Assembly: GCA_020056205.1 (NCBI GenBank)
Contig: JAGVIF010000486.1
Span: forward strand, 1-11,346
Direction: 5' to 3'
DNA from: Lentisphaeria bacterium
GTDB lineage: Bacteria; Verrucomicrobiota; Lentisphaeria; Victivallales; GWF2-50-93
Length of the DNA stretch: 11,346 nt
Shown piece after piece: positions 8,383-11,346 of the stretch. A program made the translations under genes and the position numbers. Under the pieces are notes generated by a model. That model did no database searches. It was not told the origin of the DNA and saw nothing but the letters and a program-made list of their open reading frames with translations. Numbering within the stretch: the first letter of the stretch is position 1; each line of letters opens with the position of its first letter.

Positions 8383-8460
8383 CGGGATGTAGCGCAGTCT
8401 GGTTAGCGCGTTAGACTGGGGGTCTAAAGGTCGCGAGTTCGAATCTCGCCATCCCGACCA
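8383..8460 (+). tRNA. tRNA-Pro (anticodon GGG)
   Basis: The 78 bases fold as a complete cloverleaf. The acceptor stem is CGGGATG (8383-8389) with CATCCCG (8450-8456). The D stem is GCGC/GCGC. The anticodon stem is TTAGA/TCTAA with loop CTGGGGG, giving anticodon GGG at 8418-8420. The T arm is GCGAG-TTCGAAT-CTCGC, the discriminator is A8457 and CCA is encoded at 8458-8460. The C1-G72 pair is characteristic of bacterial tRNA-Pro. It reads proline codons CCC and CCU. Its 3' end borders the AT-rich restriction-modification block, a common place for island integration. Confidence 0.97.
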
Positions 8461-8547: not shown

Positions 8548-9588
8548 TTAACTTACCCAGACAGAAATTGAATCGTGAATTTGTCGCGACCAGACAGCTT
8601 CATCATCCAGCGAGAAGTTTTTCTGAATGATAGAATCAAGGTAGGATTTCAAAAATTTCGAGTTGCTAAAACTTTTATCCTTTGCAATGGTAATGAATGA
8701 AACAAACTGACTTAAATTCATCGGGACAATTCTTGTTTTTCCGCCATATGCTTTTGTATTCATTCGGTTCAGATTGAAAAAGTGTGCCAATGCGCCTTCA
8801 CTAATTTTCGGCGCGACAAACAAACAGTAAACAGGGACATCGGAATTATGTTGAACCCTGCCAAAATGACGAGCGACAGGCTCGCCTTCCATCTCATACT
8901 GTTTATTTCCGCTTGACATAGTCACTTCAACAATCATTTTAAATCCGTCATACTCTGCTTCAATATCGGGTAAGTTTCCAAGAGCCGTATTCAAAGGCAT
9001 TCCATCTAAATCCAATCGGAAATTTCCAGTGATTTGTTTTGCATAATTTATCATCACCGTTGCGCGCCAGATGTTCCATTCCAAATAAAGCGGAGGGTCA
9101 GGAATTTCTTTCTTCTGAATTTTCCCGAACACTTCGATTATGTCATCAAACTCCTTATAATTTTTCAATTCAACTTCCGCTTGCTGAATTACCTCCGAAA
9201 TCATTTTAATTTCTGTTGTCTCTAATAAATCTTTCAGCGTTTCAACATTTGCTTTCGCATCAAATTTGACAGACAATTTTAAAAGTTGTTTTTCAAGATA
9301 TTTTCTATCGTCAGTCAGCAACAATAATGACGAAAGATTGAAAAGATATTTTTTGAAACCAGTTTCCGTCTTAAATACTTTAGTTTTCCGTTCAACATTT
9401 TTTAAAACATAATCCACTTCTGCAACACGGGACGGAGCAACAATCATTCTGAAAGTTTTCTTTTCAAACGAAATTAGCTGCGTTGCTCTCAAATAGCGAA
9501 TGAAAGCGTCGGCATAATCAATGAGATATTTATTATGGCGTTCCCCTTCGGGTCGGGCTTTTCGCTGCAATCTTTTTTCCCAACGCAC
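8548..9588 (-). pseudogene. AlwI/N.BstNBI-family endonuclease, catalytic half only
   Basis: The longest frame is 346 codons from a GTG at 9588. Homology-like sequence begins near residue 19 (NKYLIDYADAFIRYLRATQL); the first ~18 codons are translated from the direct-repeat DNA and have no good ribosome binding site. Residues ~160-240 form a PD-(D/E)XK nuclease with E170 (YLEWNIW), D208 (LPDIEAEYDG), E221 in IVEVT and E234 in EMEGEPVARH. The spacings of 38, 13 and 13 equal those of the catalytic acids of N.BstNBI as I recall them (E418, D456, E469, E482). The distance from D208 to the end is also similar. By this alignment about 250 N-terminal residues, the site-recognition half, are absent. 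The family cuts at a fixed distance from an asymmetric site. The remnant may be dead, or expressed as a bare cleavage domain. It is the last gene of the minus-strand cluster. A GTG-started CDS is the alternative reading. Confidence 0.72.
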
Positions 9589-9624
9589 GATGCCAACGCT
9601 GAAAAAAGGATTTCCGCTACAATC
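9556..9624. repeat. pair of imperfect direct repeats in the restriction-modification cluster
   Basis: On the minus strand GATTGTAGCGGAAATCC (9608-9624) and GATTGCAGCGAAAAGCC (9556-9572) match at 13 of 17 positions with a 52-base period. Between them are T6 and A6 runs and two copies of GCGTTGG. The block extends toward GACCCGAAGGGGAACGCC (about 9538-9556). Such sequence reminds me of dispersed intergenic repeats seen in Bacteroidota genomes; that is recollection, not a search. It fills the gap between the 87-residue ORF and the AlwI-like homology and supplies the latter's apparent first codons. Confidence 0.55.
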
Positions 9625-9635
9625 CCTAACGCAAC

Positions 9636-9899
9636 CTACTTCACCAAATAAATCTTTGTGATTGAATTTTTACTTTGGTCAAAATGAATTTCAAATGCTT
9701 CTCTTTCATTAACTACTTTGCGAGAAGTTTCAAACACCAAATCATTCGGATGCTCCTTTGCTCTTTCATCCTCTATTTGAGTATACAACAAAGAGTGTTT
9801 CACTTTTTGAATTCCATTTTCAAATTTCTTCTTAAAAGAAAGTTCTATTTTCTTGAAATATTTTTGAGGATAAAATGATATGTCGTAATGCTGTGCCAT
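9636..9899 (-). CDS. 87-residue protein of unknown function, coupled to the endonuclease gene
   Basis: The ATG (9897-9899) shares its A with the TAA of the upstream endonuclease gene (TAATG), so the ORF is probably translated by coupling and belongs to the restriction-modification operon. The product is soluble and highly charged. It has a basic, aromatic N-terminal part (MAQHYDISFYPQKYFKKIEL) with lysine-rich helix-like sequence, an acidic middle, and a C-terminal beta-like end (AFEIHFDQSKNSITKIYLVK). I do not recognise a family. There is no helix-turn-helix as in controller (C) proteins, and no signal peptide or membrane segment. A small accessory or inhibitor subunit is possible, but that is inferred from position only. 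Confidence 0.65.
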   Translation of the reverse strand: MAQHYDISFYPQKYFKKIELSFKKKFENGIQKVKHSLLYTQIEDERAKEHPNDLVFETSRKVVNEREAFEIHFDQSKNSITKIYLVK

Positions 9900-10627
9900 T
9901 AGAATTGGAATATTTTACTTTCAAGTTTATTTGCTTTTGATGCGTTATCGTAAAGTTCAATCATCTCATCATAATTCGCAAATTTGAATTTATCAGAATT
10001 GCTTTGATACGGTTCAAGATGAATTTGTTTTTCAAACTTGCTTCTATGTTCTTCGGGTGCAATAATGTAAAATTCCGTTCTAAAATTTAATAATTGCAAA
10101 CTTCTATTAAATGCGCCAGTTAATGTTCCGACACCATCTACAACTTCAAATACTTTTTGAGGAAATTGGAAACCATTTTTATTAAACCAAATAACATCAA
10201 TTCTTTTTGTCTCTGCAACAATATCATCATAAGTAAAACTTGGAATATTTTTCACTGTTGTCAAATCAAATAATTTGATGTGGTCTTTAAAAGTGGCTGA
10301 AGGGTCAGCAGTGTATGTGTTATAGTTTTTGAAATTTCCCAACTCCAAACAAATGCCTTCAACGAATGAGTGCATTCTTAATGTATCAGATTTTTTTGGC
10401 GCTTTTTCTTCTGAATAATCTTTAAGAGCAAAAATTGCTAATCCGATTTTCTTAAAGTTTTTATTTTCTCTTATTTCTCTATAAAGAACGCCGCGAATAC
10501 CAGCTTCCCAATCTCCTGATTGTTTAGCCGTAGGATAATATTTTTCAATGTTGTCGTAGATAGTTTTCCAGCTGGCTGCTCCACCATTGTCTTCCAGAAT
10601 TTTTTTTATTGCTTCAACTTTTGTCAT
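9899..10627 (-). CDS. restriction endonuclease-like protein, HARE-type winged helix plus PD-(D/E)XK domain
   Basis: Residues 1-70 fit the HARE-HTH winged-helix pattern found in some restriction enzymes and chromatin factors: VEAIKKILEDNGG, then a WKTIYDNIEKYYP helix, GIRGVLYREI (43-52) and a closing IGLAIFALKDY strand. A linker (70-83) leads to a nuclease-like domain. E90 lies in a helix (SFVEGICLEL), D144 in KRIDVIWFNKNG and E161 in VFEVVDGVGTLTGAFNRSLQLL. This is the strand order of PD-(D/E)XK enzymes. Related proteins I recall have E-x-E in the last motif; here the second acid is Val163 with Asp164 next, so activity is uncertain. The ATG overlaps the methyltransferase TAA (TAATG), which supports a role as its partner nuclease. 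The gene is AT-rich like the rest of the block. Length, 242 residues, is full for a small type II enzyme. Confidence 0.7.
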   Translation of the reverse strand: MTKVEAIKKILEDNGGAASWKTIYDNIEKYYPTAKQSGDWEAGIRGVLYREIRENKNFKKIGLAIFALKDYSEEKAPKKSDTLRMHSFVEGICLELGNFKNYNTYTADPSATFKDHIKLFDLTTVKNIPSFTYDDIVAETKRIDVIWFNKNGFQFPQKVFEVVDGVGTLTGAFNRSLQLLNFRTEFYIIAPEEHRSKFEKQIHLEPYQSNSDKFKFANYDEMIELYDNASKANKLESKIFQF

Positions 10628-11265
10628 TATGCTACATCTTTTTCAGCGCTTCCTTTAAGCATTAATTCAAAAATTTCTGTGGGTTTTTGTGTTGGGTATT
10701 GTGAGGCAACCACTCTTTTTATTTTCCACACATCAGGAATACTTTTAGAGTTCAAATGTCTTTTTCCTTTGCTTGCAAATAAAATAAATTCGTGCCTTCT
10801 TCTGAAATAATGACCTAATCCGATATTTGCTTTGTCCCAACACAAAACATTTTTAATCTCAAACACGTCGCGGGCAATTGGGGCAAGTGAAAGTAAAGAA
10901 TAAGAATCAAACATAATATAAATGTGGCGGTCGTTTCGCAAAACACGATAACATTGCTGTAAAAATACTCTGTAGTTTCCTTCAGTATCATGAAATTCTT
11001 CAAACCATTTTGCGTCATCTTTTCCCGTATCTGCATATTTGCCAATAATTTTTCCACGACCAAGTTTTAATCTTTGGTTCATTCCTGAATATGCAGGGTC
11101 GGTAATAATAATATCAACGCTATAAGCCGGCAAACTCTTTAAAAAACTAATTGCATCGTCTTGAAACAAAGAAATCCTTTGATCTTGACTTTCATAAGCA
11201 GGTTGCTGGTCGATCTGAATTTTATGCCCATTCAAAACCTGATCTGATATGCGAGCCAATTGCAA
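10627..11265 (-). pseudogene. DNA methyltransferase (N6_N4_Mtase type) lacking the SAM-binding end
   Basis: This is a site-specific DNA amino-methyltransferase of the beta arrangement (catalytic motif first, SAM motif last). Visible parts are FLKSLPAYSVDIIITDPAY with motif IV DPAY at 56-59 (usual form DPPY), CWDKANIGLGHYF (142-154), HEFILFASKGKR (158-169), the DVWKIKR region (178-184) and YPTQKPTEIFELMLKGS (190-206). In complete enzymes this is followed by motif I, DPFxGSG or similar; here the frame stops after EKDVA, with TAA joined to the next ATG (TAATG). About 60 residues that normally bind S-adenosylmethionine are missing, so the 212-residue product is probably inactive unless another subunit supplies them. 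No ATG exists upstream of motif IV; the in-frame TGA at 11269-11271 leaves only TTG starts (11265, 11259, 11232), none with a clear SD. The 5' end therefore may also be damaged. A split or minimal enzyme is the alternative. Confidence 0.68.
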
Positions 11266-11346
11266 AACTCAAAACCGATGCCGATGAAGGAGATTATGAA
11301 ATTCAGACAAGCCGCAAAACCAGAGGCATACCCAAGGCGGTATGTC
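11223..11346 (+). other. possible 3'-open reading frame at the window end
   Basis: On the plus strand one frame stays open from 11151 to the window end. Its last ~35 codons read like protein (for example KPDLICEPIAKLKTDADEGD, then YEIQTSRKTRGIPKAVC), with higher GC than the restriction-modification block. The first part overlaps the methyltransferase 5' end on the other strand, so only bases beyond about 11230 could be genuine. No start codon with a ribosome binding site is seen, and it may be a gene interrupted by the block. The product is unrecognised. Confidence 0.2.

Follow-up and report, generated by a model that had tools for sequence, protein, structure and literature searches.

The closest described relatives of the nuclease analyzed here are the type IIS enzymes N.BstNBI/N.BspD6I, AlwI, MlyI and PleI (PF09491). 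The window (the whole stretch of 11,346 nucleotides that was analyzed) shares with them the C-terminal cleavage domain, in which the catalytic residues align, but lacks their recognition half, and its cognate methyltransferase (MTase) is broken. A cleavage domain deprived of a recognition domain is also found in the small subunit of R.BspD6I (186 aa, 2p14). That subunit pairs with a large recognition subunit, whereas no such partner was found in the window's own genome (81% complete), the search giving a single match only. The window piece also keeps residues in front of the cleavage domain, its homology starting from residue 23, while the match to 2p14 starts from residue 148.

For the neighbouring HARE ORF, two groups of enzymes offered points of comparison. 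The first comprises the free-standing homing endonucleases of T4-like phages (mobE and the seg genes). According to the parts of PMC2988022 drawn on here, mobE sits between nrdA and nrdB and overlaps nrdA as UAAUGA, and phage homing shows flank conversion. The HARE genes share with this group the UAAUGA overlap, an nrdA/nrdB intergenic site and the insertion into genes. The T4-like enzymes are of the HNH or GIY-YIG type and belong to phages, whereas a HARE and restriction-like protein is encountered in bacterial restriction operons, where the blocks that carry it cost the host the ends of its genes and have flush edges. The other group, the DpnI-type m6A-dependent nucleases, resembles the HARE protein in combining winged-helix-like and restriction-like nuclease domains and in adjoining inactivated MTases, as far as the relevant passages of PMC11037411 go; in the HARE protein, the HARE-type domain stands at the N-terminus instead. 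No description of HARE-family nucleases replacing parts of restriction-modification (R-M) operons was found in the titles and abstract openings of the open-licence papers searched.

The features of the window referred to below are as follows.

8383..8460, plus strand: tRNA-Pro(GGG), adjoining the nuclease remnant
8548..9588, minus strand: AlwI-type (PF09491) nuclease, C-terminal part only, with intact catalytic residues; homology spans 8551-9525, and residues 1-22 derive from the repeat
9526..9635, no strand assigned: Bacteroidota-type repeat with direct repeats and GCGTT/AACGC ends, between ORF87 and the nuclease remnant; holds the nuclease start codon
9636..9899, minus strand: 87-aa ORF (ORF87), its start overlapping the HARE stop (TAATG)
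9899..10627, minus strand: HARE ORF, 242 aa (relatives carry PF27126), with a winged-helix-like N-terminus and a restriction-enzyme-like C-terminal half; TAATGA start on the stop of the cut MTase
10627..11265, minus strand: what is left of the cognate beta-class MTase (PF01555), homologous over 10636-11238, without ~65 N-terminal codons and ~74 C-terminal residues including the DPF.GSG motif
11239..11346, no strand assigned: sequence unrelated to the MTase, in place of its 5' end, reaching the contig end

The nuclease frame and its missing N-terminal half

The nuclease frame (8548-9588, minus strand) comprises 346 open codons with a GTG start, and its first ATG does not occur before codon 48. 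It matched PF09491 (RE_AlwI) with E=4.7e-43 over profile positions 141-440 of 441, and the solved structure of N.BspD6I, 2ewf_A, with E=5e-21. Residues E170, D208, E221 and E234 of the window protein were placed opposite chain positions 424, 462, 475 and 488 of 2ewf_A (counted by hand on the alignment). The numbering of the 604-aa chain 6qnz_A is six lower, which puts the same four acids opposite E418, D456, E469 and E482 of N.BspD6I. The preliminary description had assigned the frame to the AlwI/N.BstNBI-type enzymes on account of this very spacing, and rightly so. E469 and E482 are taken here, as they were there, to be further catalytic residues. The part of PMC6261011 consulted lists the other two, E418 and D456, among the catalytic residues. 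The cleavage domain and the catalytic acids, on which membership in PF09491 was judged, are both present in the window, and the small subunit 2p14_A matched the frame as well (2.1e-19). Judged by these alignments, a half-length AlwI-type nuclease with aligned predicted catalytic acids is real and not a chance resemblance.

The window protein showed no departure at 109 positions conserved in at least 97% of the homologues, a property shared by 60 of 119 relatives among the matches listed. In a comparison of 12 sequences, the changes private to the window amounted to three synonymous and six nonsynonymous ones, inside the range of the other sequences. Since no relaxation was seen in the frame, the protein could still be made, and the earlier suggestion of a recent truncation agrees with this observation. 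The structure model of the nuclease was poor (mean pLDDT 51.9). Distant relatives were present in 14 plasmid records and one phage record, and none was detected in the viral contigs searched with the nuclease. Of the two plasmids inspected, one from Macrococcoides carries a 262-aa AlwI-family gene beside an IS257 transposase (L120:3860-4648), perhaps also a remnant.

Relatives of the nuclease are mostly full length. The search returned 1377 in all, of which 120 were listed, the first being the window's own; among the remaining 119, 101 have at least 540 aa, and the typical length is 557 aa. The homology begins at window residue 23, corresponding to residue 233-234 of P0002 (90% identical), and the N-terminal recognition half of PF09491, up to residue ~234 of 557, is absent, as the preliminary description had held. 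It had likewise placed the frame start in repeat DNA: residues 1-22 are indeed read from the Bacteroidota-type repeat. A short family starting at the same place, which it had named as the refuting observation, was ruled out by the predominance of full-length relatives. One relative, P0013, comes from another source and does begin at the identical place with the same repeat peptide, fused to an AlwI nuclease piece at the window's codon, the piece being 98% identical to full-length P0054. The repeat–nuclease junction thus arose or was passed on more than once. A search of the window's own genome assembly (81% complete) for a further copy of the nuclease, or of the N-terminal half alone, found none. 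Repeats of this kind exist in multiple copies in Bacteroidota, with six matches at four places in one genome; degraded matches occurred in four of 24 chosen genomes, and none further in the window's own.

A truncation hot spot near codon 233 was also considered, as L008 and P0020 break nearby, and was rejected because both look like ordinary frameshifts. In L008, the AlwI nuclease gene is frameshifted near codon 226 (L008:7968-7995), downstream of an MTase with an open frame.

The broken MTase and the replaced gene junction

The AlwI nuclease loci compared comprised 56 from the genome scan and two from the window's own family (58 in all, L003-L060). An MTase of the window's type (55-91% identity) directly precedes the nuclease in 22 of them, so the MTase of the window is regarded as cognate to the nuclease and not as part of another system. 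In 31 of the 58 loci, L040 and L046 included, a D12 MTase occupies this position. Downstream of the window-type MTase, the nuclease forms one open piece in 20 of the 22 loci and is divided into two pieces or frames in L004 and L008.

In all 22 loci, the MTase extends 66-75 residues past the point at which the window copy stops, and the DPF.G motif lies in this extension. In the window copy, the frame breaks off at residue ~210, and unrelated sequence near the contig end takes the place of the first ~65 codons. With both ends missing, the intact cognate MTase of a working type IIS R-M system is not there. By eye, the sequence at 11239-11346 that replaces the 5' end contains an open, coding-like frame on the plus strand, which runs off the contig.

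The junction between the two genes is replaced. The MTase homology stops at 10636 and the nuclease homology starts at 9525, which leaves 1,110 bp between them against 907 bp in L005. These 1,110 bp hold the HARE ORF, the 87-aa ORF and the repeat, and the ~907 bp lost contained the 3' end of the MTase gene and the 5' part of the nuclease gene. Neither the cognate MTase with its two missing ends nor what looks like the inclusion of the HARE ORF in the replacing block had entered the preliminary description. MTase relatives numbered 1566 in all, 120 of them listed with the window's own included; no other among those listed ends in a window-like manner (P0276 and P0347 are without the motif as written), hence, among operons with this type of MTase, the window is the only HARE-cut one seen.

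HARE loci in other genomes and probable transfer of the block

Every HARE relative listed (120 of 770) carries PF27126, and P0121-P0125 show 80-90% identity; the Pfam scan gave no match to PF27126. The first 67 residues weakly resemble HARE-HTH, at 0.023 in the window, which falls below the cut-off, while eight of 15 family members matched (best 0.00025). Forkhead, another winged helix, weakly matched nine of the 15 members (best 0.0063), and the C-terminal part matched a PADLOC type II nuclease model, again in nine of 15 (best 1.2e-07). D144, E161 and D164 are identical in all 125 HARE sequences, and three distant relatives have ExE where the window's clade has ExV-D. Residue 165, which adjoins the putative active site, is G in the window and S in 124 of the 125 sequences. 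The HARE structure model was of poor quality (mean pLDDT 55.4), a search for similar folds gave nothing at E<=0.001, and searches of solved structures gave no convincing match. HARE relatives were absent from phages and from the viral contigs searched, and plasmids gave one 26% match. For ORF87, no relative was found in the collections tried, among them plasmids and viral contigs.

HARE was searched in the window's own genome (cut-off 1e-3) and in overlapping sets of 29, 297, 395, 274 and 393 genomes (cut-offs from 1e-20 to 1e-60). Six loci, the window and five further ones, were obtained at E<=1e-50. The gene is rare, being present in 2 of 297, 0 of 395, 4 of 274 and 1 of 393 genomes, and it recurs at unrelated sites among other genes, the six loci being of four kinds. 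In L040 and L046 (Spirochaete genomes) and in L084, a D12 MTase cut to 109-111 aa is followed by HARE and then by an AlwI nuclease of 521-530 aa (Pfam assignment of the neighbours was run for L040 and L084). These three nucleases have a changed N-terminus without the TSPR..K segment. Of the 51 loci with at least 450 aligned columns, all but L040 and L046 have the segment (49 in all, 30 recognized by pattern and 19 by eye), as do all 101 proteins of at least 540 aa among the matches listed. In L086, the order is R.TdeIII, HARE and an MTase without its first 20 profile positions, and in L068, HARE stands alone between nrdA and nrdB (genes named by eye). In five of the six strong loci, the MTase is missing the end that faces HARE.

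The stop of the preceding gene overlaps the HARE start as TAATGA in the window and as ATGA in L040, L046 and L084; L068 and L086 have a gap instead. ORF87 and the repeat were not seen in the other HARE loci. Three distant HARE relatives (31-35% identity), found in the window's own genome, G067 and G069, had no adjoining MTase by eye. The one in the window's own genome (L069:4677-5411, 31%) adjoins a 200-aa ORF that looks by eye like an NYN-type nuclease. Region L086:2681-7742 apparently contains nested systems, in which the TdeIII operon with HARE lies between two apparent type III genes, a Mod gene that seems to be cut and a Res gene that is short at its N-terminus (by eye).

A comparison of L046 with L040 and the intact locus L052 bears on the movement of the block. 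Outside a block of ~900 bp, L046 is 96.9% (391 bp) and 98.8% (1,406 bp) identical to L052. The block itself, HARE with 55 nuclease codons, is that of L040 (~99% match), with two differences in 726 HARE bases, whereas the flanks of L040 and L052 are far less alike and their nuclease genes have a synonymous distance near 1.4. The block is common to two otherwise different loci. At its right edge in L046, the change-over takes place within about six bases, which we take as too short for an assembler overlap, although L046 is a short contig of 3.5 kb. The edges are flush and flank conversion is nearly absent, with two donor-like sites by the left edge. From these sequences we infer that the block moved into an allele without HARE, the direction being uncertain and the contig short. 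Co-conversion, proposed from the rise in L040–L046 identity near HARE, was rejected, as L052 shows the same conservation of these flanks and the edges are flush. The dN/dS of the nuclease proteins of L040 and L052 was 0.047 and that of the L040 MTase stub 0.065; as the stub shows no relaxed selection, the insertion in L040 appears young. A 53-row tree groups L040 with L046 and was not used for this point because both carry the block.

Explanations for the broken operon

As an object, the nuclease half is ordinary; the cause of the operon break is the more interesting finding. The reading that we favor, with a probability of roughly three in four, is that the nuclease half is the relic of a complete type IIS operon whose gene junction was replaced by a HARE-carrying block. 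The starting point would have been a beta-class MTase gene followed by a gene for a 557-aa AlwI-type nuclease. Replacement of their junction would have removed the 3' end of the MTase gene and the 5' part of the nuclease gene, and ORF87 and the repeat would have come to stand between HARE and the nuclease remnant. HARE is presumably the moving gene, a putative nuclease gene coupled to the preceding gene by stop/start overlap much as free-standing homing endonucleases are, and the remaining half of the AlwI-type enzyme probably no longer works in restriction. The decay of a type IIS enzyme envisaged in the preliminary description thus holds in so far as a broken operon left a relic; the cause goes beyond simple decay, ~907 bp having been replaced by a 1,110-bp block. 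Some observations count against parts of this reading. The nuclease frame is unrelaxed, so that its product could still be made, and the D...ExV-D motif of HARE, a predicted nuclease, departs from the ExE of distant relatives. Flank conversion, the mark of homing, is nearly absent in L046, ORF87 and the repeat are confined to the window among the HARE loci, and L068 and L086 have gaps before HARE. The window-type MTase gave no second example, the three distant HARE relatives stand apart from any MTase by eye, and the HARE-HTH matches are as weak as those of Forkhead. All assemblies are metagenomic or draft, and the window is the whole 11.3-kb contig of a 597-contig genome.

The cut MTases may also be read in another way. 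HARE might be a methylation-dependent (type IV) nuclease like DpnI, established only where its arrival destroyed a resident adenine MTase, with the AlwI nuclease merely left over; the truncation on the HARE-facing side in five of six strong loci speaks for it. HARE domains and winged helices are related, and the consulted part of PMC11037411 reports PD-(D/E)XK-wH sensors of adenine methylation, some of which stand beside frameshifted MTases. The same part of PMC11037411 indicates, on the other hand, that HARE domains may rather sense cytosine marks. D12 MTase matches over at least 200 profile positions occur elsewhere in every HARE genome except G000 (five of six), and they neither support nor exclude such an enzyme. 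This possibility is one we consider rather unlikely.

A free cleavage domain with HARE as its DNA-binding partner, as proposed in the preliminary description, would in its general form be a two-protein system with HARE as the recognition component of the AlwI nuclease and the window as the extreme case, reduced to the cleavage half. In L040, L046 and L084, HARE and the nuclease with the changed N-terminus do stand back to back in open frames, the nuclease dN/dS (L040 vs L052) is low, and a 186-aa cleavage subunit without a recognition domain works in R.BspD6I according to the part of PMC4081073 consulted. The equally unrelaxed MTase stub of L040, on the other hand, suggests an insertion too young for a low dN/dS to imply function. 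HARE also occurs without any AlwI nuclease, in the TdeIII operon of L086 and alone at the nrdA/nrdB site of L068, as well as next to nearly full-length AlwI nucleases, so the partnership is not supported. In the window, the two genes are moreover separated by ORF87 and the repeat, and the late first ATG of the nuclease is a further difficulty. Such a pair may exist in L040, L046 and L084 and is less likely in the window, and the two-protein system as a whole seems improbable. Plain decay by deletions and repeat insertion, with HARE present by chance, would suit the additionally broken 5' end of the MTase, the nuclease genes in two frames in L008 and L004, and the 262-aa gene beside IS257 on the Macrococcoides plasmid. 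It would leave unexplained why so rare a gene lies beside a cut MTase in restriction operons in five of six strong loci, and we give it an equally small chance. A repeat of a multi-copy kind could finally have joined contig pieces wrongly, and the GC content drops from 0.37-0.52 to 0.30-0.37. The same repeat peptide at the same codon in P0013, from another source, and the recurrence of the MTase–HARE–nuclease order on the 135-kb contig of L040 speak against a chimera, which appears more improbable still.

A wider, tentative generalization, to which we give somewhat less than even odds, may be considered. HARE/PF27126 putative nucleases would form a class of mobile genes that enter restriction operons in place of the MTase–nuclease junction, disarm the MTase and leave the neighbouring nuclease with a new N-terminus or with the cleavage half alone. 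They would spread from species to species as a block, and type II systems would be converted in a process that is either homing-like or driven by methylation. The turnover of restriction systems is fast, and to our knowledge the way in which they are lost has rarely been seen. In the loci compared here, a rare nuclease-like gene recurs at places where an MTase is cut, with two MTase families (PF01555 and PF02086) and two nuclease families (AlwI and TdeIII), and one pair of alleles, intact and replaced, shows 97-99% identity outside the block. This recurrence and these near-identical alleles allow a test of whether such a gene is a predator of restriction operons or can persist only where methylation has been destroyed.

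Next to the nuclease remnant, tRNA-Pro(GGG) adjoins the low-GC restriction segment and is a possible integration site.
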